From contig OX485803.1 of the NCBI GenBank assembly GCA_950295325.1, positions 59,349,554 through 59,413,553 of the forward strand: a DNA stretch of 64,000 nucleotides. The letters run 5' to 3'. Source of the stretch: Polytrichum commune (lineage: Eukaryota; Streptophyta; Polytrichopsida; Polytrichales; Polytrichaceae). The translations under genes were made by a program, and so were the position numbers. Every line of letters begins with the position of its first letter. Position 1 is the stretch's first letter. Under the pieces are notes generated by a model that saw nothing but the letters and a program-made list of their open reading frames with translations, had not been told where the DNA came from and did not search any database. Shown piece after piece: positions 1 through 56,193 of the stretch.

Positions 1-1762
1 ATCAAAAAGTGCACGTGAAAAATGTACTGGCGGCTCCTCAAGATCGCGCAAGAGTTTTGCAAATGAACCCACCGTGTGGTTTGCATCGCCAGGGTAAAAA
101 TCCAAACCATAATGGGCATACTTAACGTCCACATGGCCATGGGCAATCATACCTAGAAAAAACAAACGATGCGTGAACAACAAAAATGAAATAACCACTA
201 AACTGATGTATGATGTTGGACATTTGCCAAACACACCCAAGAAAAATGGAGAGACTTTGAACACATCGTTGTGATTTCTTACAAACCTGTGACAGCTACG
301 GGCAACTTGAAGAGACCATCCGTGGCCTTTATTTTGCGTGCATAACAAGGGCATGCGGTCTTGGCGTGGTCCATTTTATCATGGATGACTGTGAGAACCT
401 CTGTCGGCCTCATTATAGATAGTGCACGGTTCTTGTAGTAATCTTGGCGGTGTGCCTCTTGATTGTTGACATGCTCAATATTTTTTTTTGGTGTCTAGTA
501 TGGGATTCAGTACCAATGGGGTGGGCGTCTTGAAGACCTTTGTATTTCTCACACGCCGTACACCTAGCGAACTTGTCACCAGGTCTCTTCAAAATGTATT
601 CAGCAAACTGTTGGTTTTTAATCACACTCAACTTGGACAAAGAAATGGGCCCACATCCCGCTCTGCGACCCACTTCGTTGATGTCCGTTAAGATGTTCTT
701 CCATTTTGTGCCTATGGGCAACACCATTTGAACAACTTTCTCCCCTGTTCACAATGTCCTCGTCTTGTGGGGCATTGCATCGGCCAATGGCACTATGATG
801 GTGGAGAGTGTCGCCGAGGCTTGTAGTGTAGCCTCCCTAGGTTTCTTTGTGCCCGAGTTGCCATGAAATCGAGAGCGGCGACCCAACGATGAATACTTCC
901 TAAACCTATAAAAATCAACCTTGGAGACAGCATGGATGATATACCATACCGTACAACACACTTCGACATTTTCAAAGGTCACCACCTTATGACCATGGAT
1001 ATCAAGGTGCAAATTTCTGTGCACCTCGAATTTCTTTGCGGATCTCATACGAAAATCCGCAAGCCACATCTCTTCACGAAGTGACCTAATTTTTTCGCGT
1101 GGGAAGAATTGGCAACATTTCCTCGCGCAACAGTCCTTGGCGGACACGAGACGGATAGAATCGTCTCCCAATATGCGATCCCGTCGTCACTCCTTATCAC
1201 CGCGAGGCACGCGGTTAGAAGCATATCTGCGGAGGCCTTTGCGAGGAGGTAATTTGGCCAACAAAGCTGATTTCGCTTGTTTGTGCCGCCGCCCATGATC
1301 CCACAAGTTTACTTCTTCATGGAGAACACGACGAAGGGGCCATCGACGTAAGGAAAATCTCCACATCACCGGAACCTCGAGTGGAAGCAAAGAATTCAAG
1401 ATGCACACACCAACATCATCGGCACCGAGGGGGTTGGCATCCATACATTCACGGGGATCGGAGTTTCTACATATGCCATTTACCACCGGGACACCAAGAT
1501 CGTTAAGTAGAACGACATCAAGGCCCACCCATTCCTCTCTTCCAAAACCCGCACACAATGGAATGTCATCGTTGTCATCACCGGAATGTAGACATTGTTC
1601 GTGCCCTTCAAAAGAATCATCGGAGGATGCATCCACAAGCACCCCCAGCACATTTGTAATGTCAGTACCGTCCACCGACGTCAACGTTAGTTCGCGTTCA
1701 CTATCGGAAGACGATGCACTAGTTGACAACTCCAATGAAATATATCCCACATGCATCGCCAT
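1..1762 (-). pseudogene. Transposase/integrase-like gene of an uncharacterised mobile-element family, broken
   Basis: One reading frame runs leftward from an ATG at 1762-1760 (context acaATGG) to about 490. It is interrupted by TGA at 1189-1187 and TGA at 751-749. A run of nine T (481-489) then shifts the frame by one base, after which the family-like sequence resumes (EAHRQDYYKNR, then IHDKMDHAKTACP). A 134-bp GT-AG intron lies at 286-153, and the last exon runs off the left edge. The N-terminal 190 residues are acidic and Ser-rich. After that come a Cys-rich patch (CCARKCC), a HGNSG..KP segment, a C-x2-C pair (FARCTACEKY) and D/H-rich motifs (DKMDHAKT, IAHGH, YGLD, NHT). From memory, this motif order resembles transposase-like proteins repeated in plant and protist genomes, but I cannot name the superfamily. 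The damage suggests an inactive copy. It is divergent from the composite gene at 5644, and three palindromes lie just upstream of it. Confidence 0.5.
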
Positions 1763-1905
1763 TGTTCCTAAACAAACAACCATGGCATGAACAAACAATA
1801 CCCATTCCAATGTTTAAAATAACGCACAAATTATTTGTCAGAATATATGGCCCAGAAATCACAAACAACTCTTGGGGCATCCATGGGAAGGCCTCACACA
1901 TAAAG

Positions 1906-2251
1906 ACGAACGCACGTTCGAAAACAATATGAAGACACGGAAAAACTGCATGGGATTCCCACGGCAATTGACACCGGCATCTAGTTATATATCATTCGTG
2001 AAGGGTGTCGATATGAGTTGTTGTCCACCCATGGCAAAATGTTTGAGGCGGTTATGTATACGAACGACCGTTCGTAAGTTTTTGGAAAAACAGTATATGC
2101 AAAAAACACTTTGACAAGTCGACATTGTGATAACTCAAGCAATACGTTTTCTGAAGACATGCCACCCTCTGTCGGGGAACTGATAGGGTGTACCACATCA
2201 CGTCATACCCTAGTAAATAATGGGACGGCATATTTACGAACGACCGTTCGT
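1906..2251. repeat. Three copies of the ACGAACGNNCGTTCGT palindrome upstream of the transposase-like gene
   Basis: Copies at 1906-1921 (last base changed), 2060-2075 and 2236-2251. The last two are exact outside the free central dinucleotide (AC in both). They lie 140-490 bp upstream of the start of the leftward transposase-like gene. This is the same family as the arrays in and before the gene at 5644, so the palindrome is shared by both genes of the locus. Confidence 0.9.
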
Positions 2252-3117
2252 ATCTCTCTGTCATACTTTGGTTATATACAGGAAGGTGTCTGTAAGTGTA
2301 GTGTTGGATGCGATGGAGACCTAATATATGCTATGAATGTATGTAATTGTGTGTGTGTGTGTATATATAAATATATAAATATATATATATATATTTACAC
2401 ACACACACACATACACAATAAGCTAAACTCGAGTAAAAACATGTTGTGGAGGCCCCTAAAATTATAGGGATGATCATATGATTCAAATCGAAACATGCCC
2501 GTAATATGCTCACCAAGCGCGTGAAAACCATTAAAAAGTTTGGTTAATCCACAATGAACTAATCATATCTAGATGTAAGTTAGGGCTTAATTCAAATGTA
2601 GCCATACATGTCAAAATAATGCATTAAAATGGCATGTGTGGAAATGTTTAATTAATTTGGAATGGTGAATTTGATAGAGTAATCATAAGAAATGAAACCA
2701 TACTTACGACAAGTCACACTTACAATTATGTGTTTTACATCCTACGAGAAGTATGTGCATGCTCATAGCTGAAAGTGTTGATTTAAACTAAAGTCTTAAG
2801 ACATGCATGTTATAATCATGAGATTAAGTTTGGATTGTGTGATCAAATAGCACTCAATACTATTAAGGGGAGAGATGGAGCATTTCAACACTCACTTTTC
2901 ACCCGAACCAAAGCTTTATCCGAACTCTATTAATTTTGAATCTCAAAATGACAATTATTGGCATGATTCTCAATTATTATAGTTATTGGGAACCAAATAA
3001 AGCAATTTCCAATCCAACCAACATCGATAGACCACTTTGACATGCCCATAGACCACAACATGGACACATATATTAAGAAAGGTTAGTAAGAAGAAGAAAA
3101 AATGTAGGAATGCAAGG
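2252..3117. other. Non-coding AT-rich spacer with a GT/AT/AC microsatellite
   Basis: Contains a compound (GT)n-(AT)n-(AC)n tract at 2349-2417, itself nearly self-complementary. Beyond that no supported gene is seen. The short frames over the tract are microsatellite translation. Confidence 0.6.
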
Positions 3118-3212
3118 TTTAGGGTTTAGGGTTTGTGATGGTTGTGTATGTGGTTATAGGGTTTAGGGTTTGTGATAGTTGTGTATGTGGTTTTAGGGTT
3201 TGTGGTGTGGTC
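3118..3212. repeat. Minisatellite with telomere-like TTTAGGG core
   Basis: About two and a half units of roughly 40 bp. Each carries one or two TTTAGGG motifs followed by a conserved stretch TTGTGTATGTGGTT. The plant-type telomere heptamer supports a land-plant source. The interspersed non-telomeric part makes this an interstitial minisatellite rather than a telomere end. Confidence 0.7.
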
Positions 3213-3315
3213 GTTAATACGTTACATTACACACACAAACAATATTGACTCCTAAAAACCTTGTATCACACTAACTAAACTTATGAAACTGACAGTTGAT
3301 GGTAGCCGTTATCCA

Positions 3316-3825
3316 CAATCTCAAATTGGTCCTTTATGAATGTAATATTTATTTGAGAAACCATGGTTCAAATTGAAAGAAATCTCGTTCCCGAAAACTG
3401 TATAATTGAAAACCTCATATACACATCCTTAGGGGTGGATTCTTCATTGAAAACCTATGATATCATACATTTGATGCTAGCGAAATAATGACCAATATGG
3501 CTCATTGGTTAAATGCAATTACATCATTGTTAAAAATTAAAGTTCAATGCACTATACGATTGTTAGTTCAATTTGACACCTAATTAAATTAATTGTGGTC
3601 CTATTGGAAATTAAATTAATTGACGTCCTCCACCTCTTGCAAGAAACCGAATAGCCCCTCTCAACAATGTCAAATTGGGTCCTTTATGTACTATGTAATA
3701 TATATTTGAAGAACCATGGTTCAACTTGAAAGTTATCTCATTCATGAAAACTCTATACTTCAGAACACCATATCCACATCCTTGGGAGTGGATTCTTCAT
3801 CGAAAACCCACTAAATGACATACAT
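3316..3825. repeat. Two diverged direct repeats of about 160 bp, 350 bp apart
   Basis: 3316-3475 and 3664-3825 share a similar order of blocks (CAAATTGG.TCCTTTATG, ACCATGGTTCAA.TTGAAAG, GTGGATTCTTCAT.GAAAACC). The GGGGTGGATTCTTCAT block resembles the terminal inverted repeat of the elements at 50054 and 51066, so these may be end fragments of the same family. Confidence 0.55.
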
Positions 3826-4122
3826 TGTGCAATACTCATTAACTTAAAGTTGTTTTTTAAAATATGTTTACAAGGAATACAAATGTAAAGGTACTAAGGG
3901 GGCACGGCACACAAAATTCATGTCTTCATATTAAGCTCTTGAAGTTATTGTGATTAATGCTTCCATCCCATATTATACATATACATATGCTTTGTATTGC
4001 CTTCATGATTACTTCTACATCCATCTCCCATCGTATTTCCCCCCATCCCCCGATGTCCCCATCCTATCTCCTCCCATTTCCCCCATCACCCATCTCCACC
4101 CATACCCGCACCCCTTCACATG

Positions 4123-4206
4123 CCACGTGGAACGACGCCATTGGAAGGGTGCCAATGGACCGTCACCATTGGAACGTCGCCACGTGGCAGCCATGGGGAA
4201 ACCCTA
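4123..4206. promoter_or_regulatory. Symmetric G-box / CCAAT-box array with 7-bp rhythm, plus telo-box
   Basis: CCACGTGG (4123-4130), CCATTGG (4138-4144), CCAATGG (4152-4158), CCATTGG (4166-4172) and CCACGTGG (4180-4187) are separated by four spacers of exactly 7 bp, giving a nearly mirror-symmetric array. A telo-box AAACCCTA follows at 4199-4206. G-boxes bind bZIP/bHLH factors and CCAAT boxes bind NF-Y in plants. The block lies about 1.4 kb before the first ATG of the composite gene and is the best promoter candidate for it, assuming a long 5' leader with an intron. Which gene it serves is inference. Confidence 0.55.
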
Positions 4207-4886
4207 GCGGCGGGGGCGGCTACCACCCCACGCCCCTTCTCTCTCCTCCTCATTGTCATTTGGAACCGAGAGAGGAGGAGCGGAGAGCTTAGCGTATTCG
4301 GAGCGAAGCTCTTGCAGATTTTAGAGCCTTCTTCATTTTTGCATCAAGTTGTGTTTGAGAGTTGCATATTTTGCTTTAGAATTGACTGTTTGTGAGTAGA
4401 GAGCTTGAGGGTTGTAAGAATGTTAGTAGAGCTGAAGAGTTGCAATATTGGGGTTTGAAAGCTTGAAGCTTGAAGCTTGTAGCTGCACCAGAATAGGTGA
4501 TAGGGTTTGCACATAAAGAGTGAGGGCTTGAAACTGTGATAAAGGAGTGAGTGGTGCAAGGGCGCATCTCAACAACCAACATTGTACATTTGTGTGTAGT
4601 TTTGTGTTTTTTCAGCAAGCCAGGAACAGTTTGGGTTTAGAACACTTCAATGTGAGTGGATCAATCCTTCTAAACTCACAACCCACATCCTGAATTGGTT
4701 CATTGTTGATTTCCATTTGTTTTGTTTGTATTATGAGCTTTGGCAGGTTTTGCATGCATTCTGAGCTTTGATATTCATTCTGAAGTTCAATTGTGTTCTG
4801 ATTATTTTTTCTTTTTTCTTCAATTCAATCATTCTGGCCAAGCACTTGCAAGCATTCTTGCGAGCGGAAGGAGTATAGTCCATCGT

Positions 4887-4916
4887 ATACGTATTCGTAC
4901 ATATACGAATACGTAT
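4887..4916. repeat. Perfect inverted repeat, 13-bp arms, 4-bp loop
   Basis: ATACGTATTCGTA and its exact reverse complement flank the loop CATA. The arms contain TTCGTA/TACGAA, echoing half of the ACGAACG palindrome that follows at 4961, but the arm sequence is otherwise different. Confidence 0.85.
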
Positions 4917-4960
4917 ATATACGGACAATATGCAAGAAAATATCCAAATTAGCCACATTT

Positions 4961-5609
4961 ACGAACGATCGTTCGTAATTGCGAATACATAGTCTGAGCC
5001 AATTTTACGAACGCTCGTTCGTAAATACCCGCACCCTAAAGCACTAGCCAAGCAATTTACGAACGATAGTTTGTAAATACCCTAAACCCAATGCACAAAT
5101 CCAGAACATTACGAACGCGCGTTCGTAAAGTAAGCTGGGAAAACCAACAATTAAACAATTCAAAATTCAAACCCTCTGTAATATATTTAAACCAAATACA
5201 CAATTACTTAGAAATATTTAAATATGAATACCTACTTACGAACGCGCGTTCGTAAAAGACTGCAATCTTGTTTTGGCGGACCAAAACACATTTATTTACG
5301 AACGATTGTTTGTAAAATAAGATGAAAAGATTCTGAATCAAATAGATGAATGCCTTATTTTATGCAACAAACCCAAAATGCAGATAGTAATGTCGGGCCT
5401 GGTGGGTATCACTCACGAACGAACGTTCGTGTTTACTATTGTAAACATTTATTTTATTGTGAAGATGGTCTGAAATGTGAAAAAACAACCCAGAAAACCA
5501 CCTCCTTTACGAACGATCGTTCGTAAAGATAATCAAAATGTATTGCAACAAATACATTCATAATGTGTAGTATCTTGGATTTGCATGTCGTTTACGAACG
5601 CTCGTTCGT
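4961..5609. repeat. Array of nine ACGAACGNNCGTTCGT palindromes before the composite gene
   Basis: Starts at 4961, 5007, 5059, 5111, 5238, 5298, 5415, 5509 and 5594. Seven are exact outside the central dinucleotide. 5059 and 5298 carry changes in the right half only. Most extend the symmetry with TT/TTA on the left and AA/TAA on the right, giving about 20-22 bp. The centre varies (AT, CT, CG, AA) and each full site holds at least four CpG. Intervals are irregular (about 46-127 bp), and the sequences between share no other repeat, so the palindrome itself is the unit. The last copy ends 34 bp before the ATG at 5644. Confidence 0.92.
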
Positions 5610-5643
5610 AAACTCAACACTAAATGTTTATATTCTGTTGCAG

Positions 5644-6939
5644 ATGGCAAGATCAAGCAGAAGCGCGATTAAGATTTTCGCAGTGCAGGTCGATCGCCTC
5701 CCAGAGTCGGTGTCCGACGATAACGGCAACGACAACTTTGTTCCCAAGGACGACTTCATGGGGGAGTGGACGGCTCTGCCAGAGAAGTCCGTAGACGGCC
5801 TCTTCTGCATGCGATTCATCTACGAGCTGGAGACAAGACCGGACCAGCCCGAACAGTGGGTTCAAATGAAGACGTGGGAGATAGAGTCCATAGAGGCCCA
5901 GGGGGATTATGTAATTCTAGACATGAAGAACAAGAAGGATCATATCAACCTCTTGTTGCATTACCAAAAACATACATTCTCCTACCAATACGCCCAAATG
6001 AACGTAATCGAAGATGCCAAGCACTTCGACCTGGAGGGCCTCTTCTCCAAATATGCGTTGAGCCCATACTGGACAGCAAGGAAACTAACCGCCCTGGCAT
6101 TGAACATCTCCAAATACAATAGTGTGGTCACTGAGGCCAACAAGAAGAAGAAGAGCCCCAGGAAACCATCCACATCAAGGGCAGGAGGCTCTAGAAGTGC
6201 ACCCAGGCCTGTGCCTTCCGCAAGCAGGGCGACGGAGGGCCCTAGCAGACACTCCACGCCATCGAAGAGGACAAGGGACGAGATGGAGAAATCGGGAGTA
6301 ACAGAGACCGCGGAGGTGACCTCGCATGTCGTAATGCCTACCCCCTTGAAAAAGGGCGAGAACCCTGACGTTGTGAAGGCCACGAGGATCCTTCGAGACT
6401 TCAACAACTACTCGAAGGATTGCTAGCCCATGGGACGCCACTTCACATTCAATGTGGACTGCTTCAAGTGCGAGATGTCCCCCAACAAATGGGTGGTTCG
6501 GTCTCGCGAGAGCGGTGGTGTGAAATGGCAGATAAATAATCTAATGAACAACGTCAAGTGGGATAGGCAGACCGTCTGCGTCATGCCGAAGGGGCTGACA
6601 TCCCGTCCGACGGAGAAGGACTGGCCACGGATCCAGAATGGAGAGTTCTGGATCATAGACGGACAACACAGCTTGGAGGCGTCCCAGATAATCCTCAAGG
6701 ATGACAACTTCCAGCATGACTTAAAGGCAGACTTGCGCTACTGGAAGGCGTTCTTGGTGTAGTCGGACGATTGGGACAAGCTGCGGAAGATTTCCACCTT
6801 CCTCAACTCCGGCAACAAGATCAAGGCCTTCGAGGCGTCGTGGGCAGCCAACATAGTGGCTGCAAGGGACGTCTGGGTCGCCCACGGGTGCCCCCCTAAG
6901 GAAAGGGAGAACGCGAAGACGCCGTCTCCACAATGGAAG
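5644..6939 (+). CDS. Exon 1: N-terminal domain and ParB/DGQHR-like domain
   Basis: 432 codons from ATG 5644 (MARSSRSAIK) to the donor AAG|GTGAGT. Residues 1-165 form a compact domain conserved in copy 2 (DHINLLLHY..H.FSY, SPYWTARK). Residues 170-235 are a basic, Ser/Pro-rich linker (KKKKSPRKPSTSR) likely to be disordered or nuclear-targeting. After the first TAG the frame continues unbroken. At residues 337-345 it reads IIDGQHSLE, followed by a helical segment. D-G-Q-H-[RS] with downstream A/S is the signature of ParB-like nuclease and DGQHR (DndB-type) domains, which act in DNA partition, nicking or modification. R is replaced by S here. TAG codons at 6424 and 6760 align with Trp in copy 2. 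Confidence is fair for the motif and lower for function. Confidence 0.55.
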
Positions 6940-7061
6940 GTGAGTTTACGAACGAACGTTCGTAAACATCTTTGACATTCAAAATTTCAAGTTCTTTGAC
7001 ATTCAAATTTACGAACGTGCGTTCGTATTTTGTACATTACTGATGCCTTTCTTGCTGCAAG
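6940..7061 (+). repeat. Intron 1 with a palindrome at each end
   Basis: Donor GTGAGT at 6940. Palindromes at 6948-6963 (centre AA), only 8 bp after the donor, and 7011-7026 (centre TG). AAATTTCAAGTTCTTTGACATTC-like direct repetition of CTTTGACATTCAAA lies between them. Acceptor TGCTGCAAG ends at 7061 but gives the wrong phase; an in-frame AG occurs at 7086-7087. Copy 2 retains a donor (AAG|GTAGGT) and two decayed palindromes (28129, 28090) in the same place. Confidence 0.7.
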
Positions 7062-8386
7062 CATTCTGCGACGCGATGGTGGACAAGTTCTCCTCCATCG
7101 ACATGAAGTCTACAACAACCAAGTCTGTCATGGAGCTCAAGGGTGAGCTCCGCCTCATCTGTTGCAACAGGGACACTTGGGAGTTGTGGACACAATTTTT
7201 TGATGCGCACAGCTCGGGCGATCTGGTCAACCCCGACACCGAGGAGAAATACAGCGCGGAGAAGACCGGGGAGGCCCCTCCATTACTGAGGGAGTTCTTC
7301 AGGTCCCTTCAAGGGTTAACAGAGTCCGAGTTGCAGAGGTGCGCGGTGCATCTTCTTGGGAACACAGTGGGAAGAACCATCCCATACCCGAAGATATTTT
7401 TGAAGAGGCCAAGACACAAGCCCGGCACGTATTCCATCAAGGAATGGTGCGAACACCGCAAGCTAAAGACTGCTGCAATGAGGGAGTTGAGCGCCCTAAT
7501 ACCAGAGTACGCACTCATCCTAGCCGACGGGGAGATTAATTGGGCCAGCCGGAAGATGTTCAAGGTCGACTACAACATCTCCGGAGCCTCAATGCGTTGT
7601 CTTGTCAAGGAGCACGCCTCCATTTTGAAGCAGAAGGGGAACAAAAGGACAAAGAAAACCGAGACTGATCCCCAGGAGGTGGAGCAATACAAAAGGTTTT
7701 TGGCGCGGAAGAGGATGGCCACATTCGAAGGAGTGGCCAGATTTTGTTTGGTGACAACCGGAGTGGAGAGGGTCACATTTTCCAAGTGGGACGGGACCCT
7801 CAACAGGGCCGAGGTGAGGGAGGATCGACGGGGGTGCCCATTTGCCCTGATCGATTTCAGGGGGATCCCCGGTGTGTCGAGGCAGGGGGGAAAGGACATG
7901 CCCTTCTACAACCCCTTCATGGCCAAGTTCAAGGAGCACAAGTCGCCGGACATGAGGGAGCCTCATGTTTGGCTGTGGATAGTGGAGCAGGAGAAGCTCT
8001 CTGCTGTAGTCGACCTGTACGAGAGGTCGATCAAATTCAAGTACAACATCTTCCACAGCACTTACGTGCCCGCCAAGACAGAAGGGATCGTGGCCATCAA
8101 CGAGGCCAGGGGAAATAAACAGGTGGGGGCGGTCAGCCTCGTCTTCTTGACGTACAACGCGCTTCGGAATGGGCGAGCCCCTGTCAGGGCGAATACTACG
8201 TTCAAGAAGATCTACAGCATCCCCCATCCCCCTCCCAAGGATCTGCTACAGGAGACCTTGTACATTCTCCTCCCGGCGCTGGAACTCAGGTTGGAGTTCT
8301 ACGTCTCCGTGTTGCAAAGCGTCGCAATAAGCGGAGAGACCGTGTACAACGTTTGTGGAGGCAGTAAGTTCATGTACGCTGCGATG
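7062..8386 (+). CDS. Exon 2: DNA methyltransferase-like domain with altered catalytic motif
   Basis: About 440 residues, open from FCDAMVDKFSS to the donor ATG|GTAAGC at 8386/8387. The first 260 residues are a conserved region (TIPYPKIFLKRP, YSIKEWCEHRKLK) that I do not recognise. The second half has the layout of a beta-class N6A/N4C DNA methyltransferase. A strand ends in ALIDFRGIPG (D at 7853) where DPPY is expected, followed by HVWLWIVEQEKL..VV and, near 8348, VYNVCGGSKFMYAAM resembling motif I (FxGxGxx..AA). That strand continues into exon 3 (LGLVVNNFVDAVDEEDF). ParB plus methylase pairings are known from phages and bacteria, which supports the reading. DFRG in copy 1 and DIIC in copy 2 both lack DPPY, so methylation activity is doubtful. 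Pairing with a structure search would decide. Confidence 0.45.
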
Positions 8387-8527
8387 GTAAGCTCTCCAAC
8401 TGAAATTTACGAGCGCTCGTTCGTAAAGTTCACCTCAACCTGTTTTTGTGTTTGATGAAATTGTTTCTCGTCGTTGATTTTTACGAACGTACGTTCGTAT
8501 ATTCTAACGTATTAGCTTGGATCTCAG
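8387..8527 (+). repeat. Intron 2 with two palindromes
   Basis: 141-bp intron with donor GTAAGC at 8387 and acceptor GGATCTCAG at 8527, phase 0 on both sides. Palindromes at 8409-8424 (ACGAGCGCTCGTTCGT, one change) and 8483-8498 (exact, centre TA). Copy 2 carries four decayed palindromes in the corresponding stretch (26508-26694). Confidence 0.8.
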
Positions 8528-9984
8528 ATGCTGGGCCTGGTCGTCAACAACTTCGTTGACGCCGTCGACGAAGAGGACTTCCAGATGCACAGGGCGAAGG
8601 CGTCCATGATGGACCTGGAGGACATGTCCCTCGCAAGGACGGACATCAACATGCCCGTCGACGAGTGCATGCCCGCCATGGAGACGGACGACGACGAGCC
8701 CGCGCCCTCCTACAACGTCGAGGCGATCCTCCGATCATTGGACGTCACGCCTCTGCGAATTTTGGGGCCGTCGGGAAACCCATCCGACGTGCAGGGGACT
8801 CCGGGTGGATACACGGGGTCGTCCGCGGGGACAACCCAAGATGTCCTCCCCGCGCGAACGTCTGGGGCGGAGGCATTCGGCACTCCCGGGGGATGCTCGA
8901 CATCGGTGTCACCTAGGCCAGTCGTGGTTCCTAAGATGGAGAACCTCGACCTTCTGGACCAACGCTCCCGCCCGTCGTTGGACCACTTCCGCAACACTAG
9001 GCGGAAGATGAAGAAGACCCCCTACGTGGAGCTGCCTCCGGGGGCAATAATCGAGGTCTCCGACGAGGACGAGGGAGATATGGAGATAATGGTCGAGCTA
9101 GGGGTCGACTTCGACAAGAACAAGTGGGTCAAGGAGGAGGCCCTCTCCGTCGCCGAGCTTAACGCCAAGCTCGAGCAGAAGATGAAGGAGGACATGGCGA
9201 AGGCTGTTGAGGAGAATGCGAAGAAGATGAGAGCAATTCAGGAGGAGCTAAGGCAATCCAACGAGAAAACGGACGCCATCCTCACCATGCTCAACAAGAT
9301 GCAGAGTTTCTTGGCGCCCCCCCCCCCCCGCCGGCTTACCCCTTCCCTGGAGGATACCCATCGCAATACCCCCAGCCAGGCCAGTACCCCCCGCAGGGCC
9401 ATTTCCCAGGAGGACCATCACACCAATCCGCGCCCCACCCTACGCCTGTTGGGACTCCTCCGCCCCCAGAAGTTCCCTCGACCACCTCCCACGATGCTGT
9501 CGCAGCGGTCATCCAGGAGGACGAAGATTTACGAACGCGCGTTCGTGAATCTTCAGGTCCTGCAGTCCTCACCCCTCCCCCTCCAAGGGTAGGACTGCAC
9601 TCAGACACCGACACAACATCTTTCACCATCGTCCCCAGGGTAGTAGACAAATAGGGCGATGACTCTGCGCGACACACTGACATGGTCATTGTGGAGGACA
9701 CGCAGGGGAGCCCCAATGACGCAGCAGGAGAGCAGGGGATGGACATGGAAGAGACACCTGCCGCGTGGATGGAGGATGTCCAGATGGACGCGCTCGACCT
9801 GGGCGCCGAGGATGACAACGTGCTGCGCATCCAGCCGACACATGCCTCTCAGTCGGAGCGTGAGGCCGACTCCATGGAAACGGAGGCGGCTGCGGCTGTG
9901 GAGGTTACGAACGCGCGTTCGTTAATCGTTGAGGAGGGACCTGCTGCTCGGTCCAACGCCGCTTCCCTTCCCCCCGATGACGAG
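8528..9984 (+). CDS. Exon 3: end of methyltransferase-like fold, coiled coil, low-complexity tail
   Basis: Starts in phase with exon 2 (YAAM|MLGLVV). An acidic region (VDEEDF, METDDDEPAP) is followed by a heptad-like coiled coil at about 9150-9303 (ELNAKLEQKMKEDMAKAVEE, then IQEELRQ), also conserved in copy 2 (25900-25640). Then a run of 13 C at 9317-9329 breaks the frame. One base more restores a Gly/Tyr/Pro/Gln-rich tail (AYPFPGGYPSQYPQ) that stays in frame to the donor GACGAG|GTAAAT at 9985, apart from TAG at 9652-9654. The palindrome occurs twice inside this exon, at 9531-9546 and 9907-9922, in frame, coding LRTRVRES and VTNARSL. The tail is probably disordered. The role of the coiled coil is presumably oligomerisation (inference). 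Confidence 0.5.
9531..9922 (+). repeat. Two palindromes inside exon 3
   Basis: Exact copies at 9531-9546 and 9907-9922, both with centre CG, lie within coding sequence of the low-complexity tail. Copy 2 has a decayed counterpart of the first one at 25409-25424. Insertion into a disordered protein region resembles the behaviour of the Rickettsia palindromic elements, though the sequences are unrelated. Confidence 0.8.
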
Positions 9985-10558
9985 GTAAATCTCCTCTGAG
10001 AATACCATTTTTTGCGAACGCGCGTTCGTAACCTCACTAACATCGCGGTGTTTTTCTCTTCATCGACACCCCCTTGCCCACGCGAGCCCTCTTCAGCGAC
10101 CCCCCTTATGGGCGACCAATTTTGTAGGACACGGCATCATTTTGCCTTAGGAAAATGTGATAGACTATCACGTGAGAAATGTAAATACTCAACGGATTAA
10201 TATATGGGCCCATGTTATCTGCATCGCATTGCTTCAAATTCTATGCCCTCGACCCCTTCTCGTATATTGTGGATGTTGATGCGATTATGTTCATTCTTGT
10301 GTATCCACCTCATTCACGAACGCTCGTTCGTGAAAGGGTGCGACCCCGTGTCCACCTCCTTCACGAACGACCGCTCGTAAATGCACCGCCCCCGCAGCCT
10401 TCATTCACGAGCGGTCGTTCGCAAGTGTGCCCTTGTGCACATTTTCCTTGCACTCTCCTCACTTCCTTGTCTTTTCCCATAATGCATCGTCTTCATTTTC
10501 TACGCAAAAATTTCATTTTTGGATCATAGCATTAAACTAGTCGCGTTGTTCATCACAG
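9985..10558 (+). repeat. Intron 3 with four palindromes
   Basis: 574-bp intron, donor GTAAAT at 9985 and acceptor CATCACAG at 10558, phase 0 both sides. Palindromes at 10014-10029 (first base changed), 10316-10331 (exact), 10363-10378 and 10407-10422 (one and two changes). No frame of its own is supported. Confidence 0.75.
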
Positions 10559-11326
10559 GACCCCCCGGAGATAGGTCGCAACCCCTTGACCAGTGGACCT
10601 CACACTTGGAACAAGCCTTTCATAGTTTTTGACCTCAACGGGGTCTTGTGTCACACCCAACACATCCCCAGGGTCCCCACGCGTCCCTTCCGTCACCCCG
10701 ACGAAAGGGACTATGACGGCGAGCTCGACACCCTCATAAACCGCAAGGCTGTCCGCGCCCGTCCCGGCTTGCGGGACTTCCTTCGCGAGGTGGTCGAGTT
10801 CGCACACGTCGTTGTGTGGAGCTCCATGGTCATGGAGAACACGGAGCCCATCGTGGATTTCTTGTTCCGTGATCTCCCGAGCCTTTGCCTCGTCCTCGGC
10901 CAAGAGGACTGCGACGAGCTGCTCGACGAGAAAGGCCGACCGGTGCCCAAGTTTGGCGGTCGAGGCGGAGGACAACAGTTCCTCAAGGTCCTCCGCTCCA
11001 GACTCTGGCGAGGCGTCCCCCGGCTGCAGGGGACACCCCACGGGTGGTGGCCGACTCCTGAGAATACCCTCCTCATCGACGACAACCCCACCAAGAGCGT
11101 CTTGAACCCCCCGGGCAACGTCATCTTCCCGGACACATGGACCGGCGATAGGCAAGACACATTTTTGGTCGATAGGCTAGCCCCCTACCTTATAAGGCTC
11201 GTGCTCCACGCCGGTAGCATCCCATTTTTTGTTAGGTCCAACCCCTTCGGCAATGCGGCACTAAGCCCCCGCGGTAATGTATATAAGAGCATCATGAGGC
11301 TCGCCAAATTCAATAAATTGATTTGA
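10559..11326 (+). CDS. Exon 4: NIF/FCP1-like HAD phosphatase domain with DxN
   Basis: 255 codons, open throughout. The HAD motif I region reads KPFIVFDLNGVLCH (Asp codon 10631, Asn codon 10637). The catalytic pair is usually DxD in the NLI-interacting-factor/FCP1 family, and here the second Asp, the acid/base, is Asn. Further family marks are RPGLRDFLREV, a motif II-like VVVWSSM (Ser/Thr after hydrophobics), a Trp-containing insert, and the motif III/IV segment NTLLIDDNPTKS. The FDLNGVLC variant is, as I recall, common in plant NIF-like proteins. The Asn makes dephosphorylation doubtful and suggests a phosphoprotein-binding role. The last codons (KFNKLI, stop) are matched in copy 3 (KYNKLI, stop), so this is a true C-terminus. 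The fusion to exons 1-3 is inferred from splice sites only. Confidence 0.65.
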   Translation, partial: DPPEIGRNPLTSGPHTWNKPFIVFDLNGVLCHTQHIPRVPTRPFRHPDERDYDGELDTLINRKAVRARPGLRDFLREVVEFAHVVVWSSMVMENTEPIVDFLFRDLPSLCLVLGQEDCDELLDEKGRPVPKFGGRGGGQQFLKVLRSRLWRGVPRLQGTPHGWWPTPENTLLIDDNPTKSVLNPPGNVIFPDTWTGDRQDTFLVDRLAPYLIRLVLHAGSIPFFVRSNPFGNAALSPRGNVYKSIMRLAKFNKLI

Positions 11327-12430: not shown

Positions 12431-13784
12431 TGGGTCGGACTAGTGTGACTAGAAGCGTACCAGTGGGACGGACTCCCTAAATGGGCTTAGGTGTAGAACA
12501 TATTTAAGTGCTTATTTTCTATGCTATTCCAAGTTACTCAAGACATTGATGGTATTTCCATTATAATTGTATTTCAATCCCAATTAATTCATTCAACTTC
12601 CATTCATTCTTCGCATCTTCCCTTCCATTCATAACGAGTTGTCATTTCATACGCAACTATTTTCATGTATGCCTCACATTTTTGTTCACTTCCATGCCTT
12701 TATGTATAATAGTAGTAGCATACCATTATACATATGGGATTTTTAGTCGTCATTACTGGTCCAATTTTGAAATGTGCATCCTTATATAGTCTCATAATCA
12801 ACAAAAAGTCTCCAATTACCGAATATAGTGTTATATAAGTCCTAGGAAATCGTCCTATGTCAGTAACGTAACAATGTAAATCTACCATACTAGTAGATTT
12901 GCATATATTATGGTGACACAGTTGAAGTTTCCAGTGACATAAGTCAATTGTCCATGACGCATATGCTTGTAGTGCAACATATGCGTAACCCATATAACAT
13001 TATTCAACATCATTTCATTGTTATTTGGGCCTAACAAATAAAGTTGTTCGATCATCTAATTAAAAGCCTTCAATACAAATGTTCTGACACTTTCACTCTG
13101 GATATGGGGATTCACTCATGACAATGTACTACATACAACTCACCACCCCAACCCCATTCATTTGTCATTGTAAATGATCCACTTGACAATATTGGACGGA
13201 ACTTGCATACATCTAACATCATATTACATGCCTACTTCTCAACTTTTGCATCATCTCTATTGTGTATGCAACCCCATGATGATGCATCCCATGGTTAGTG
13301 TTTCCTTCATTTGTCCCATAAGCCAAACTTATTCAATTGTCTTCCTTGTGAGCATGTACAAGGTTAATCACTTACAAATTAAAAATGTTGAAACCCAAAC
13401 CCACACTTAGTTCAAAGGCATCACATTATGTAATAATGGCGGCCGCCAAGTGAGACTCATTGGTTTTGTAATACCAATATCTCTGGACATCCAAAGGCCA
13501 CACACAAGTTAGTCCAACTCCCTCAATAAACCTAAGTGCAGATCGCATGATGTACGCCTTGCTATACAAAACACCCTAGTTCCCTTGCCCAATGGGGTCT
13601 CTAGTCGGGAGTCACCCTAACTTGTGATCTTAAGAGCCTCAAACTCCCCGCAAGCTACCATTCCCACTTACTAGCCTTGGGAGCCTCTCAATTCGGAACA
13701 TGCCCTTACTAGAGGAGGAAATCTAAGACATGATTGATAACATGTGAGCTATAACATGTGAGCAATGACATTAGATAGAGTACA
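12431..13784. other. Non-coding 3' flank
   Basis: No supported gene. Around 12770-12840 the sequence resembles the 3' flank of copy 3 (59640-59700; shared blocks CAAAAAGTC and GAATATAGTGTT), so the duplicated unit seems to extend beyond the last stop. From about 13420 onward it is near the end of the Copia fragment, but no LTR could be delimited. Confidence 0.4.
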
Positions 13785-14985
13785 TTATCCATCTATAAGG
13801 GTCATAATCTTCCACCACTCTCCGGGTGGGCACTGCTCCCTCTTAGGATATTTTCCATCTTTGCCAAATCCCTCAACGCGGCCACCATTTTCCACAGGTT
13901 TTTTGATCACTTCTTCATTTGCAACCAAATGATTTCCCAATTGCTCATCACGCTCCTCATTATCATCACACGAAGATGATTTGGAAGATTTGTCCACAAC
14001 AACCTCCATAAGCCTTCATTTCTCCCACTTAGACACATTTTCAAAGTGTTTTTAACTCTCATGCTATCCTCTATGAATATCATGTCTTTATTTTTATTTT
14101 ATTTTTTATTTTCAAAAAAATAGCCTATAGGCCTTAGTCCCTTCACAATAATCCAACAATAAACATTTTGTGTCCTCTGCATCAAAATTATCATTTTTTT
14201 CATCCAACACCATTGCGTAGGCGACGCATCTGAACACACGTATGCAATGCAAGGCCTCCTTTCGCTCCACGCTTCCTCAAGCGTTATGGAAACCGACGTC
14301 TTTGTTGGACATCGGTTTCGTGTGTAAACTGCATTAGCCACCGCTTCCGTCCAAAAGGATTTTTTGAGGTTTTAAGCATTAAGCATGCTCCTTGCCATCT
14401 CCACGATGTTACGATTCGCACGCTCCGCCACTCCGTTTGTTGAGGCATATATGAAGTGGATATTTGCTTCTCGATGCCATAATCCTCCCAAAAACGGTTG
14501 AATGCCTTGGAAACGAAGTCCTTGCAATTATACGACCAAAATGCCTTGATTTTGTGCTCTGATTACGTCTCTATGAATGCCTTGAACTCCTTAAACCTCT
14601 CAAAACATTCTCCTTTGAATTTTAACGCATACAATCACACATTCTTTGAGAAATTATCAATGAAGGTCACGAAATACCGTGCACTGCCTATAGATGTGGT
14701 CCTCATAGGGCCACACATGTCGGAAGGCACGATTTCCAAAGGCTTGGTTGTTCGCCTCTCCCCTTGTTTGGAAACGCAACCCTATGTTGTTTGCCTTCGA
14801 TGCACGTTTCGTAAAACAACGAGGATGTGGGGTAAGAAATTTTACCAAGGTTCATGTCAGTCACCATGTTTTGAAATGTATGGACACCTTTCACGTTCAA
14901 ATGGCCAAGACAACAGTGCCAAACTTGAGCACACCATCTCCGGTTGGAGATTGCATCAAATTGGTTGCATTTGTCGCGACCTTTG
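13785..14985 (-). mobile_element. Copia-type retrotransposon fragment: integrase and linker
   Basis: Leftward debris of a Ty1/copia polyprotein. 14985-14700 holds the GAG-pre-integrase part (CCLGHLNVKG, matching WHRCLGHLNVKG of the plus-strand copy at 57430). 14341-14099 holds the integrase end (NAVYTRNRCPTK). 14009-13785 holds the acidic linker that precedes reverse transcriptase, ending in KYPKREQCPPGEWW. Frames are broken repeatedly and no reverse transcriptase or RNase H follows. This is a truncated relic of the same family as 56194-58340. Confidence 0.75.
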
Positions 14986-15940
14986 CTAGCACCTTTAACT
15001 ATGTTGACCATTTCTCAATTCTAGCAAGGGTCACGAGCGCTAACCCTTTGTATTCCACCATGCGAATGGTTAGCTCCCCATACCGCGGACCTCTTAGCCC
15101 ATAGGTGGAGGACCAGCCCTCCTACTTTGAATTCAAGATTCTCCCCTTAATTGGTATCCAATGATTAGATGTGGATTTCCATCCATGGAAATTCGATCTT
15201 AAGTTGATAAGTGCGTTGCTAGAACAACACTATAACAACCCGAACCATACTATGCAACTATGCCCTCATGTTGGGCCAACACCCGTAGAGGTCATACCGT
15301 TCGGCCTCGGGTGGGTTTGGCTAGCTATGCCACCTCACCCATATAAGCTTCTAGAACTTTGGGCAGGGCCCCTACCCCACTGTCAAGTAATATTTTGTCT
15401 CTCTACAAGGGTTGGCGTCCAGTAGACATTTTTTCTTAGCCGCCAAGGCTAGAAGCCCCTAGCAGCTTTAGACCTCCATAACTTTGTCGTATGGTCTTTG
15501 CTTCTAACAAGCGTTCATTCCACGTAGATGCCAATGGACCCCTCACTTGCTTCATTTAAGCAAGTATTGAGAAAGTTATGGTTGTTCAAACCTTGGCAGT
15601 CCCGGGAGCCACTCCCATGTCAATGTCCCAAGACAACGTCCCACTTAAATTGTCATATCTCCTAGCTCACATATCCGATTGAGGTGTTATTGAGTATTCT
15701 AGAATTCCGACGCCATGAGCTACTTTTAACTTATGGCCTTATCTTTGTGACTCTTAGTTTCCGTAGGTGGGAACACCCGGGGCCCTCACCCACACTATGA
15801 GCACGTGGGCCCTCTCACCAACGGCGCCACAAGTGTCCTCCCGGATATCATACCAGGGTCTCCCTTATGTCCATGGTATTTCAGGCACTCCTCATGGAAA
15901 GGTGCATGATAATATCCGCTTTGTGCTCTTTTATTGAGAA
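14985..15940. mobile_element. Insertion inside the Copia fragment, possible solo LTR
   Basis: Aligning the two Copia copies by eye, protease and integrase are less than 0.2 kb apart in the plus-strand copy but about 1 kb apart here. The extra 0.9 kb is non-coding, moderately GC-rich and has phrases typical of plant LTRs (CTCCATAACTTTGTCGTATGG, TGTCATATCTCCTAGC). Exact ends and a target-site duplication were not resolved, so solo LTR is only the leading guess. Confidence 0.35.
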
Positions 15941-17093
15941 AAAAAATCCTTATAAGTTGCTTTGACATGGCGCAATCGCAATGGCTTCACCGTTGCAAGA
16001 TTTTACAATGCATTTATTTAGGTTGAATTAGATCTTCAAATTGTTCGATACAAGATTGCTCATAGATAGCAAATTGACATGCAACTTGGACATATTTAAC
16101 ACATCTTTAATATGAATATTGTTGATATAATCTTTCACGATTGTTTCCATTCCATTGGCTTTGACAACACTATCATTTTTCAAATGTACATTTTGTTGAG
16201 CGATTACCTTATACATATCAAATGTGGTCTTATGCAAAGTCATGTGTTTGAATGCTCCCAAATCCATGATCCACTTGCACGCAATTTTAGAATGTGCTAC
16301 ATTATGTATTACAAATGCGTAGTTGACACCGTCCCCCATATTTTTCATATTATCTCGTTCTTTGTTCTTTATTTTGTAGCAAAAATGTGTAACTTGGTCC
16401 GGTTTATTGCAATGGAAACACAATTTTACATCTTGGTGCGGAAATGAGTTTCCGCCTTTTCTTTGTTACAACGCCATGGCGGTATCCTCATCTTGAAGCT
16501 ACTGTTCTTTGCGCTTTGATATATCATATATCAAACGCGGCGACATGTACTCCATCCTAAGTTTTTTCCATCGGTATTGTTTCTAAGGCGGTAATCAAGT
16601 ATTCATATGACGTCGGCAAACTCTCAAGCAAGGTTATGACAATGTTTTAGTCTCTCACATGTACGTCCAAACAAGTAAGTAGATCTGCAAACGTCTTTAC
16701 CTTGTTGATGTGGTCCAACAAGTCGTCATCTTCTTGCATCTTGCACGTAAAAAACTTGTGGTGAATGAAGAAGATGTTGGATAAACTATTCGTCTTGTGA
16801 ATGTTGCAATGGGTCTTTAACGCTTCCGCGGGTCCTTTGCAACTCTTGATGTGCACAAGTAGATTGTTTGTCAAGTTGAGGCCGATGATGAACATTGCCT
16901 TCTTAATGAGTCTTTGATACTTCTTTAGCACTTTGGGATCTGCATTGGAAGGTGGAGCTTCTTCGGATCCGTCCGCAATGTCCCAAAGATCCATGAATGC
17001 CAACAACATTTTGATTTTGAACTTCCAAAGGTTGAAATTTATTCCATTGAAATTGTCGATGATTCTAGCAGCCTTGCTTTCAAATGATGTCAT
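15941..17093 (-). mobile_element. Copia-type fragment: gag and protease
   Basis: 17093-16647 encodes a UBN2/gag-type domain beginning MTSFESKAARIIDNFNG with WKFKIKMLLA..DLWDI. 16423-16028 carries a CCHC zinc knuckle (CFHCNKPDQVTHFC, with the spacing C-x2-C-x4-H-x3-H/C altered) and the protease region, where the DSGAS active site has become MDLGAFKH. A large part between gag and the zinc knuckle is out of frame. It is the leftward counterpart of 56194-57250 and defective. Confidence 0.78.
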
Positions 17094-25249: not shown

Positions 25250-25408
25250 TCCAGCATGCTTATCCCTCACGTTGTTAGTGAGTCATGCAATGTCATTGCA
25301 CCGCCCAACTACAACCTTGGGGACAGTCGTGAACATAGTCATGTCCATCTCAATAGATTGTCTTACCCCTAATGAAGGAAGGTGAGGGGCCCTTGGACAT
25401 CAGGATTC

Positions 25409-25424
25409 ATGAACGTATGTTTAT
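25409..25424. repeat. Decayed palindrome in copy 2, exon 3 equivalent
   Basis: ATGAACGTATGTTTAT, four changes from the consensus and all of the C-to-T or G-to-A type. It sits just after the low-complexity tail as at 9531 in copy 1. Confidence 0.6.
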
Positions 25425-26507
25425 AAATCTTGGCCCTCCTGCATGGCTATGGAAACAAGATTATGGGTGTCGACATTGGAGTCGGCAGAGGAGTTGTGAC
25501 TAGTGTGGGGTGGGGTGTCCTAGGGTAAGAAAGGACTCCACAGTTTGGCCCATGTGGAAGGTAAGGGGGAGGGGGTAAGCTCCCGGTGGGGCATGCTCCA
25601 GGAGAAATAAAAATGTGTTGGTGGAGGGACCTGCATGGAACCTGGCAGTTTGTTCAGCATTGCCAAAATTGCATTGTTCTTTGCATTTGAAGCCCTCAAC
25701 TCCTCTTGAATGGCATCGATCTTCATGGTATTCTCCTTGGCCGATGTTGCAATCTTCTCCTTCATCTTAATATGCTCAAACTTAGCATTGAGCTCTGTGA
25801 TGGAGAACACATCCTCTTTGACGTCTTTCTTTCTTCTTCCCTTGGTCCACCCCGAGTTAGGCCACGATGTCCATGTCTCCCTTGTCTTCGTTGAAGACAT
25901 CTATGATGTCACCTTGAGGTAGTTCGTTGTAGGGGGTCTTCTTCATCTTCCTATTTGTGGAAGAGTTCTAAGGATGGATGGGAGCGACGGTTGAGGTCGT
26001 CAAGGGGCTCCACTTTAAGGACCACGAGTTTGGGCCTCAATGATGATGATTTAAAATAGCCACCCAGAATCCCTTGAGGCTTAGCGGTAGAAACTCTCTC
26101 AGGCAAGACAACCTAGGGTCATGCTAGGAGAAGACCATGTGCAGCTACCTGGGGTACCTTGAAGTTCATAGCCCAACCCAGGTGGAGGCAAAACTTTGAA
26201 TGGGGCTATGTTCAGAGGGGGTAAGTCTTTAACGCCCAATTCTTAAATCCATGTCTCGCTCATGGGTGGACGAATTGCATCTCTAGTAATGGGGATTACC
26301 TCGTCGTTGTTCGTTTCCAATTGAGGCATGGGCGCCTTTGTTATCAAATTGAAAACCATCTTTAAATCTAGAGTGTCATTGATGCCCATCATGGATGCTT
26401 TGTCCTTGTAGACCTAATACTCCTCATGGTAGTTGTAATCAATGAATTTGTTCACTATGAAGCCAAACATCTGAATCAAAGCACCAAACAACGATTTAGT
26501 TAAGTCC

Positions 26508-26694
26508 ACAAACATGCATTCATAAAAATAAGCAAACATCATTTAAACATGGTTGGTGTTATACAAACGAGCATTCGTAAAGGCTTTGTTTATTTATAAT
26601 GTAGAAATTAACAAGAAACAAAGGGTTACAAACATACATTCATAAGTCAATGTCCAACATTGAGGAAAAATGTGATTTACGGACATTCATTCAT
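26508..26694. repeat. Four decayed palindromes in copy 2, intron 2 equivalent
   Basis: 26508-26523, 26563-26578, 26628-26643 and 26679-26694. Most differences from ACGAACGNNCGTTCGT are CpG losses (ACAAACA...CATTCAT). Copy 1 has two in this intron, so the number changed after the copies separated. Confidence 0.7.
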
Positions 26695-28089
26695 AAAGCT
26701 TGGTTGCATAATAATCAAGCTTACCATGGCTACACAAATGAATTTGTTGTGCCAGAAACGTTGTATATTGTCTCTTCATTCTTGGGCAGGTCTTGCAATA
26801 TCTTGATGTAAAATTCCATCCACGGTTTATTGCCAAGGAAGACAAAGTACAATGTCTCCTAGAACAACTCCTTTGGAGGAGGATAGGGCATGCTATACAT
26901 CTTGCTGAAATGGCTCACTTTAATGAGAGTCCGCCCATCCCTAAGTTTATTGTACATTAAGAATATTAGGTTGATGACCCCCGCCTGCTTGATACCATGG
27001 GCCTCGTTGATTGCACAAATCCCTTCGGTCTTGCAAGGCACGTATGTGCCGTGGAAGATGTTGTACTCAAACTTTATGTATGCCTTGTACAAGTCTGTCA
27101 CGGTAGCCATCTTCTCATGTTCCACAATCCACAACCAAACATGTAGTTCCCTCATGTCTAGCGACTTGATGGATATGAACTTTGACATGAAGGGTTCGCA
27201 GAAGGGTGTCCTTTTTATTCCTTGCCTTGTGCAACCTGGAATGCATATGATGTCAATGAGTCTAGAGGGGCACCCTCTTTGGTCTTCTGCACCTCCATCC
27301 TCGAGGAGCTTTCGTCCCACCCAGAGAAAGAATGTTGATCATGCCAGGGGTGATCAAACAAAAACAATCAACGCCCTAAAACCAGGCAATTATTTTCCAT
27401 TCCAAGAATATTATGTATTGATGGAGCTCTATGACAATTGTCTTTGTCTTTTTGGCTCATTTGTTTCCCTTGAGTGTAAGCATTGTTGTGTGCTCTTTAA
27501 TCATGCCATGTATTGAGGTTTCCATTGATGTGGTACTCTAACTTGAACTTCCACCACGTCTCCCAATCGATATCATTGTTAGCTTCAAAGAGGTTTTTTC
27601 TTGGAAGGAGGCCGCTCAACTCCCTCTTGGCGTTGGTCTTCATCTTGCAGTGTTTGCACCACTCCTTGATGTAGTAAGTGCCCGGTATGTGCTTTGGCCG
27701 CTTCAAAAATATTTTAGGGAAGGGTTGCTTCCTCCCAACTGTGTTCCTCATGAGATACACTATGCAACGATACAAGTCGGATTTTGTAAGCCTTTGGAAC
27801 GGAATTAGAAACTCTCTTAAAATTGGTGGGGCCTCTTCATCCTTCTCGGCGCTCAATTTATTTCAAATTTTGAATTGACTATGTCTCCCACATTGTGTGC
27901 GTTGAAATATGATGTTCACAACTCCCATGTCTCTTTGGCACAAAAAAAAATAGTATGAGCTCTCCCTTTAGCTCAAGGATTGATTTTGTGATTGCGGACT
28001 TCATGTTGATGGAGGAAAATTTGTCCACCATCACGTTACAGAATGCTTGCACATTCCATCAAATAGTGTTAGTGATATCCAATATTTTC

Positions 28090-28144
28090 ACGAGCGTTTG
28101 TTCCTAAAAAATAAATATGGTAGTGTTTACAAACGGTCGTTCAT
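28090..28144. repeat. Two decayed palindromes in copy 2, intron 1 equivalent
   Basis: 28090-28105 and 28129-28144, between the conserved donor (AAG|GTAGGT on the minus strand) and the conserved AAGCATTCTG acceptor region. Same number and order as in copy 1 intron 1. Confidence 0.7.
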
Positions 28145-29482
28145 ATACCTACCTTCCAAGAGGGCGATTGCACCTTGGTGTTCTTCCTTTCCTTTGGAGG
28201 TGATCCATGTGCAATCCAAACATCTCTCGCTGCAACAATGTTGGATGCCCAAGATGCCTCAAATGCCTTGATTTTGTTGGCTTGGTTCAAGAACTTTGAG
28301 ATCTTTCTAAGCCTGATCCAATATTTTAACCAAACAAAAAATGCATTCTAGTATCGGAGGTCTTACTTGAGCTCGTGCACATAGTCAAGGTCCTGAAGGG
28401 TAATCTAAGCCGCCTCCAGACTATGTTGGATGTCTAAGATCAAGGAGTCTCCAATTGAGATCTCTCGCCAATTTGAATTTGTGGGTGGGGCATTTGTCTT
28501 GGGCATGACACACATTGTTTGCTTATCCCATTATAAATTATTTATGAGGTTATTGATTTGCCATTTCACACCCTCATCCCGGCAAGTCCTCACAACCCAC
28601 TTGTCAAAAGATCTCTCGCAATTAAAGCAATTGATTTTGAAAGAGAAATACGGTACCAACGGCCAATAATCCTTGGAGAATTGATTGAACTCGGACATGA
28701 TCCTTGTCGCCTTCACGGCATCTAGGTTCTCTCCCTTCTTCAGTGGCATTGGCATAAGGGGTTCCAAATTCATTTATGCTTCCATTGTGACATGATTTCT
28801 CCATCTATTCTCTTGACCTCTTTGAAGGTGTGGACTTTGGCATACTTGGCCTTTGGCAAGGGGCCCCTAACTATGTACTCAATGCGGACACTTGTCTTGA
28901 AGCTCCCCTGGATCCACTAGCTCCCAATGCAAATTATTTGTTAGGGTTGTTTTCTTCTTGTTGTTCTCTACTACCAAGCTATTATATTTGGATGTGTTAA
29001 TGGAGAGGGCAATGTTTTTTTGGTTGTCCAATAGGCACTAAGGGTGTAGCCAAATAAATGTGTATTGAGGTTGGATGGCTTCGCCTCGCGTGGACTATTG
29101 GTACACACGTACATGTAGGAAAAAATGTGTTTCATATATTGAATTAAAAGGTTCACATGGTCATTCTTCTTGCCTAAGTCCAAGACCACATACTCTGATT
29201 GGCCTCCTGTGCTCCCTATGTCTCATGTCTTTACTTGCACCCACTCCTCATGTAGGTGGGGAGGGGTGTTTAGCTCCTAGGTCAAGGGAAGCAAAATGTT
29301 CCATACTTGTTTCTCTCAGGTATTGTTGTCCACTCCAACATGATGTCTTACTTTGGGATATATGTGTCATTATCGTTGATGTTATTAATAATTACCGAGC
29401 ATGTTAATTGCACTGCGAACTATTCAATTGTGGTTCTATTTGGTCTTGCCATCTCCACATAATGAATTTCAATTCCATGTTT

Positions 29483-29960
29483 ATAATCGCTCATTCATGA
29501 TGTTTTATAAAGATACTCATATTACGTGTTTCCCCATAATAAATAAGAAACAAAAATGGAAACATGAGCTCTTGTCTAGAAAATTGTCATGAACGTTACG
29601 TTTCCCTTGTAGTGGGCAATATGAACATTTGTTCGTAAATGTGTACCTTGAGAACATGGTATTTTACAATCGATAATGTATTAGTTGATTCTCTAGTGTA
29701 TATTGTCTCAATAGATTCGAACATGCGTTCGTAACTGGAATACATTTATATTGCTCATTAAAAGCTCATTGCGAAGCACAACGCTTTATTTACAAACATG
29801 CATTCATGAGTTTTATAATATATTGGTCTTTACCACGTAATTTATGAACAAACGTTTAGAAGTTCTATAATATTTTGTTGTCATCGTTGATTACGAATGG
29901 TTGTTCATAAATTCTAAAATATATTTGTCTGTAGTGGGTAATTTATGAACGACCATAGTT
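29483..29960. repeat. Decayed palindrome array upstream of copy 2
   Basis: About eight degenerate sites (near 29483, 29589, 29621, 29717, 29792, 29844, 29893 and 29945) lie upstream of the copy 2 ATG. This mirrors the nine-site array of copy 1, including a site about 30 bp before the start. 29621 and 29717 are the best preserved. The others are recognisable mainly by context. Confidence 0.65.
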
Positions 29961-56150: not shown

Positions 56151-56193
56151 AGATATATTGTTTGATTGTTTTGAACATAAATTTGAGCGTATG

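Follow-up and report, generated by a model that had tools for sequence, protein, structure and literature searches.

Subfamily-specific palindromes and their possible reader in a DNA transposon of Polytrichum commune

What is the role of a short CpG-rich palindrome that recurs many times in and around two genes? The question is raised by a stretch of 64,000 nucleotides from the genome of Polytrichum commune (GenBank assembly GCA_950295325.1, contig OX485803.1, positions 59,349,554 to 59,413,553 of the forward strand). We call this whole stretch the window and count positions from its first letter. The palindrome, ACGAACGNNCGTTCGT, is found in and around two genes designated here as gene B (minus strand) and gene A (plus strand). 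We found that the palindrome locus is a DNA transposon with inverted ends and a probable target-site duplication, and that the type of palindrome in this family of elements tracks the clade of gene A. Subfamily palindromes that change along with gene A suggest a self-recognition system, perhaps one used to evade silencing.

The palindromic sites and the transposon

There are 15 exact matches to ACGAACGNNCGTTCGT in the window, all within 2060-10331, and 100 dinucleotide-shuffled versions of it contain 0.00 on average. Seven near copies with one or two mismatches (at 1906, 5059, 5298, 8409, 10014, 10363, and 10407) bring the total to 22 sites in 1906-10422, which agrees with the count given in a preliminary description of this DNA. 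The same description regarded the two central bases as free, and indeed nine dinucleotides are found there (CG five times, AT and CT four times each). The two-fold symmetry disappears past approximately 20-22 bp. When the 22 sites are compared with the 20-bp form TTACGAACGNNCGTTCGTAA, CpG bases depart from it in 4 of 176 cases and the other bases in 21 of 220.

The distribution of sites among compartments depends on splice sites that we read from the sequence alone. Under this splice model, three sites (1906, 2060, and 2236; 1906..2251) are upstream of gene B and nine (4961, 5007, 5059, 5111, 5238, 5298, 5415, 5509, and 5594; 4961..5609) are in the 783 bp preceding the ATG of gene A. These nine are possibly inside an intron of the 5' untranslated region, which would end at TTGCAG/ATG. 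Two sites (6948..7026) are in intron 1 of gene A (6940-7060), two (8409..8498) in intron 2 (8387-8527), and four (10014, 10316, 10363, and 10407; 10014..10422) in intron 3. Exon 3 carries two sites (9531 and 9907), and exons 1, 2, and 4 carry none. The earlier placement of the sites 5' of both genes, in the introns, and in exon 3 is borne out under this model, and so is the divergent orientation of the genes.

The element is 14,602 bp long (C1:59347784-59362385). It begins 1.8 kb before the first letter of the window and extends to window position 12832. Its ends were found by comparing element copies and are the terminal inverted repeats AACACTATATTCG(T/G)TAAT(C/T)GGAGACTTT; the right repeat, ...CAATTACCGAATATAGTGTT, occupies 12788..12832, and the left one lies beyond the window at C1:59347784. 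The window element is flanked on both sides by ATAT, and a related element of 17,313 bp (clade II, see below) is flanked on both sides by CACT. The 4-bp flanking repeats are probably target duplications, although the evidence on repeats and duplication comes from two elements and ATAT could arise by chance in AT-rich DNA. The ends start with AACACTATATTCG and not with CACTA, as they would in a CACTA (En/Spm) element. The preliminary description had the sites and both genes, but it missed the transposon, the subfamily specificity, and two sister palindromes. A decayed right-type terminal repeat of this family, with 4 mismatches in 20, is also seen at about 59656-59700, with no recognised element adjoining.

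Sister palindromes and the clades of gene A

Searches for relatives of gene A gave 16 proteins with one query, 71 with an alignment, and 73 different proteins overall, mostly unnamed database entries. Many of these metagenome proteins are exon-2 frames that continue into introns, so that their residues reveal, by way of the genetic code, the underlying intron DNA. In clade I, the nearest to the window, the read-through sequences LRTxVRK, YERxFV, and FTNxRS are the three frames of the window palindrome (palindrome I). In clade II (about 51-58% identity to P0003), FTDARP and YGRASV lead to palindrome II, ACGGACGNNCGTCCGT. In clade III (about 36-40% identity), VWVARPKL and SFGRPTET lead to palindrome III, TTTSGGTCGNNCGACCSAAA. 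Shuffled protein tails seldom attain read-through matches of this quality. All three palindromes have a CG-NN-CG centre, and the intronic and upstream places of the sites are retained across clades, the intronic ones at 33-40% identity.

The trees exclude 15 of the 73 proteins, which are short or span other parts of gene A. Palindrome type could be assigned to 28 of the 59 rows: 13 of type I, 7 of type II (including three LRPRxR variants), and 8 of type III. On the tree of gene A, the type of these 28 rows changes twice, the minimum for three states, while 300 shuffles require at least 9 changes (12.8 on average).

Palindromes II and III, first inferred from protein read-through, were then found in the source genome 1394 and 10287 times, respectively. 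This exact search covered 407.8 Mb in 64 contigs and gave 5602 sites of palindrome I, that is, 17,283 sites of the three kinds, and reversed-pattern controls gave 4, 1, and 0 for I, II, and III. We fetched 12 clusters, selected by their sites among the listed first places of contig 1: four for palindrome I (a listed cluster near C1:2.367 Mb was omitted), all six for II, and parts of two of about six for III. Ten of the 12 (I 3/4, II 5/6, III 2/2) include a gene A of the clade that goes with their palindrome, and none includes one of a different clade. Five arbitrary 10-kb control stretches contain no site of any of the three palindromes. According to the preliminary description, a genome-wide spread with no enrichment near the gene family would point to an ordinary dispersed repeat; this comparison, carried out in part, gave clustered sites, with gene A at 10 of the 12 fetched clusters. 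Among all palindromes with 7-base arms in 18 element stretches, ACGAACG, ACGGACG, or TGGGTCG is the sole most frequent one in 13, is tied in 4, and is absent in 1 (L034).

Several observations accompany these results. The metagenome protein P0002 is a clade-II gene A frame with exons 1 and 2 fused without intron 1; therefore, an intronless form of gene A exists. Locus L014 (C1:638500-648499) has 33 palindrome-I sites in tandem units of 34, 93, 110, and 160 bp and a left terminal repeat at 571; it is perhaps a non-autonomous derivative or a reservoir of sites. Four IMG/VR contigs (L001-L004) contain one exact TTACGAACGNNCGTTCGTAA each and were set aside as unrelated, with no match to gene A or gene B of the window. 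Since three of them share closely similar flanks, the sequence may be there a conserved phage operator that has nothing to do with this element.

The two genes and a dead copy

Gene A consists of four exons under the splice model. Exon 1 (5644..6939), which is backed by the relatives P0001, P0002, P0005, P0008, and P0014, contains the DGQH box. The second half of the long exon 2 (7061..8386) is predicted to have a beta-class DNA-methyltransferase fold, with motif IV before motif I in the model. Exon 3 (8528..9984) encodes a charged and proline-rich linker. Intron 3 (9985-10558) is placed by GAG/GTAAAT and CACAG/GAC, and exon 4 (10559..11326) encodes a NIF (CTD-type) phosphatase domain (PF03031, E 1.4e-16). 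A NIF exon is also present 3' of gene A in L016, L023, L025, and L036, where it is cut by the edge of the stretch. The window copy of gene A is broken by TAG stops and, near 9316, by a frame break in a run of C. The stops are at about 6424, 6760, and 9652, where relatives have other codons or continue; for at least the first two, one C>T or G>A substitution of the kind seen in methylated DNA could be the cause.

The usual catalytic motif of such methyltransferases is DPPY. In gene A the corresponding place reads DFRx(I/F/L/M)P and not (D/N/S)PP(Y/F/W) in all 55 cases located with a loose pattern among the 73 proteins, the place itself being assigned by the strand order of the model. The ParB/DGQHR families gave no NCBIfam match, and only DUF6551 (E 0.03) and DUF1015 (E 0.043), which we take to be ParB-like, were found at the box, below the cut-off. 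Neither of the VANC domains DUF1985 and DUF287 was matched by any of 61 gene A relatives in Pfam, even with hits up to E 10 considered. No relatives of gene A in viral contigs or prokaryote genomes were upheld by tblastn, and a Foldseek search against viral structures gave no matches at E 0.001.

Gene B (1..1813, minus strand) has its first exons in the window and the remainder to the left of it, and this copy contains a stop and frame breaks. The part in the window matches DUF7869 (PF25273) weakly, at E 0.0015 and below the Pfam cut-off, because just 52 of the 192 columns of the domain fall inside the window. Among ten relatives of gene B, DUF7869 is found at E 0.001 or better in nine and above the cut-off in eight; no other Pfam family, including a Mutator-type transposase (VANA), was matched at E 0.001. 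One named relative is a DUF7869 protein of Physcomitrium patens. The predicted structure of a gene B relative is poor (mean predicted local distance difference test score 50.2), and a search of the open-licence literature turned up no paper on DUF7869. We presume from the layout of the element that gene B is the transposase. The head-to-head arrangement of genes B and A seen in the window recurs in five of the fetched clade-I and clade-II loci (L015, L017, L020, L022, and L027); the fetched stretches of clade III do not cover gene B. In addition, a gene A relative and a gene B relative each come from a contig of length 19,915, which is consistent with linkage there.

A dead, diverged relative of gene A is present in the same window at 25407..29910 on the minus strand (coding pieces 29452 to 25646). 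It has many stops and frame breaks and forms a long branch within clade I. Eleven decayed sites, differing at no more than 5 of the 18 fixed bases, are found at 25.4-29.9 kb, compared with none in the other 44.5 kb tested. They occupy the corresponding places: upstream, in intron 1 (28088 and 28127), in intron 2, and in exon 3, where the remnant of the 9531 site is at 25407. CpG bases of these sites are changed in 32 of 88 cases, 31 of them by C>T or G>A, compared with 11 changes among the 110 remaining bases (Fisher p 1e-5, with bases treated as independent). Such decay is what prolonged CpG methylation would leave in a silenced copy; it concerns the dead copy, and the state of live copies is outside its scope. 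The proposal that the palindrome is a site of cytosine methylation thereby gains indirect support. The dead copy may also be useful for dating silenced copies.

Candidate readers of the palindromes

The reading that we favour, and to which we give about an even chance, is that the palindromes serve as addresses for the gene A protein of the same element, most likely for the purpose of anti-silencing. This would be a system similar to VANC that is built of different parts. We infer the gene A product as the binder, the opposition of binding to methylation, and the roles of the domains. A transposon protein, most likely the product of gene A, would bind the palindrome as a symmetric pair, with two half-sites flanking the conserved CG-NN-CG centre and the outer bases determining the subfamily. 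Bound along gene starts and introns, the protein would shield its own element from CpG methylation and keep it expressed. Its methyltransferase-like domain might recognise or protect CpG DNA, and transcription might be promoted by the NIF phosphatase domain.

The closest known parallel is provided by VANC proteins of Arabidopsis VANDAL elements. Two reports describe these as anti-silencing proteins that bind subfamily motifs, according to chromatin immunoprecipitation sequencing, electrophoretic mobility shift assays, and bisulfite sequencing (PMC5735166, PMC10398659). The two systems share a short subfamily-specific motif that is repeated, often in tandem arrays, within introns, between genes, and upstream in a DNA transposon with several genes; they also share related elements with differing motifs and a transposase better conserved than the other protein. 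They differ in the site, a CpG-rich palindrome of 16-20 bp here and a directional motif of 9 bp there, and in status, since anti-silencing is demonstrated for VANC and proposed here from sequence. Unlike VANC, gene A has no VANC domain; gene B has no match to Mutator transposases, and the terminal duplication here is 4 bp.

TnpA of maize Spm recognises a motif repeated within the element that encodes it; its sites are subterminal, and Spm ends in CACTA. In contrast, the sites described here are internal, and the element ends start with AACAC. TnpA is presented as an element-encoded activator of the methylated element (PMC10398659). Unlike the beta-class DNA methyltransferases M.BceJIV, RsrI, CcrM, and PvuII, gene A has no match to them at the sequence level, and its catalytic motif is altered. 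ParB binds 16-bp palindromes. Gene A resembles ParB/DGQHR proteins such as DndB by a DGQHS box in the five relatives where the pattern was found, but the box matches the profiles only below the threshold. DndB belongs to a system acting at GAAC/GTTC, and these letters also occur in palindrome I. Palindromes II and III have no GAAC, and for this reason the likeness may be due to chance; phosphorothioation at GAAC/GTTC, considered for palindrome I, was dropped on the same grounds.

A bolder version of the favoured reading seems doubtful to us. It states that a bacterial-type methyltransferase without its catalytic motif, a ParB-like module, and a polymerase-tail phosphatase have been combined into a transposon self-recognition protein, which would load at CG-NN-CG palindromes, spread as ParB does, and exclude CpG methylation, with three lock-and-key codes in one plant genome. 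No methyltransferase-like or ParB-like transposon protein was found by title or start of abstract in the open-licence literature, which does not imply its absence in print. If gene A proteins do read the palindromes, sequence-specific self-recognition of a plant transposon would have arisen independently of VANC. The code would be legible from sequence, with half-sites exchanged around a constant CG-NN-CG centre, and it would become testable how regulator and element coevolve while avoiding cross-talk. Three related proteins with distinct long palindromic targets would also be possible tools for changing methylation at chosen sites.

A number of facts weigh against gene A as the reader. No match of gene A to methyltransferases was obtained by sequence or profile searches, and the best Foldseek match of the methyltransferase-like domain has an E of only 0.09. 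The N-terminal half is poorly modelled, and profile searches with it found no known DNA-binding domain. As many as 31 of the 59 tree rows are untyped, as the tail is short, the site is absent, or the frame does not separate I from II. Five of the 28 typed rows (P0007, P0020, P0052, P0056, and P0062) owe their type to matches with one or two mismatches; the LRPRxR rows, three in number, agree with palindrome II no better than that. Two of the 12 clusters have no gene A: L014, with a NIF fragment and its 33 sites, and L021, with a gene B fragment. Single off-type palindrome-I sites are found in the clade-II loci L026 and L027 and in L035, where the site adjoins a second, clade-I-like gene B fragment. 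Finally, co-change would be expected equally if another co-inherited protein, such as B, were the binder.

The latter point leads to an alternative that we regard as unlikely, namely that the transposase binds the sites for transposition or autoregulation, as it does with subterminal repeats elsewhere. Three sites 5' of gene B and its inheritance with gene A in clades I and II agree with this. However, there is no site near the ends of the window element: the first is about 3.7 kb from the left end and the last about 2.4 kb from the right one. Moreover, clades I and II have different palindromes but almost the same terminal repeats, and between them gene B is the better conserved protein (70% identity, compared with 42% and 54% for gene A). 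Equally unlikely is that gene A is an active modification enzyme marking its own DNA at the palindromes, as in restriction-modification: the predicted fold is accompanied by a replaced catalytic motif in every place located.

It is improbable, too, that a host silencer or activator targets the sites and that their variation is due to drift or escape. The sites of the dead copy have decayed as though methylated, which a host protein could explain, but three palindromes, each linked to one gene A clade and each with many exact sites, fit a partner inherited with the element better. We consider it very improbable that the palindromes are RNA hairpins acting in transcripts, for example, in splicing. 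Many sites are intronic and could fold back; nevertheless, 22 and 20 of the 22 sites conserve positions 7 and 10, respectively, which a hairpin with a 2-nt loop would leave unpaired. In addition, the CG-NN-CG centre is common to all three palindromes, and the sites in exon 3 and 5' of gene B are at odds with such a role. The least credible explanation, a neutral repeat spread by tandem duplication, accounts for tandem arrays at loci such as L014 but not for fixed arms around a free centre, one palindrome per clade, and shared intronic places in diverged genes. With the kept positions 7 and 10 and the tracking of clades, the symmetric protein-binding site proposed in the preliminary description is well supported as a candidate, and the product of gene A is in our opinion its likeliest partner.

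The window contains other repeats as well. A further repeat is present in two oppositely oriented copies with 75-78% identity, at 14050-17126 and 56161-58306; by appearance, we take it to be a copia-type retrotransposon. Perfect CT runs are located at 60055-60101, 61212-61271, and 62224-62293, spaced by about 1.1 kb, and two of them are inside a duplicated stretch.

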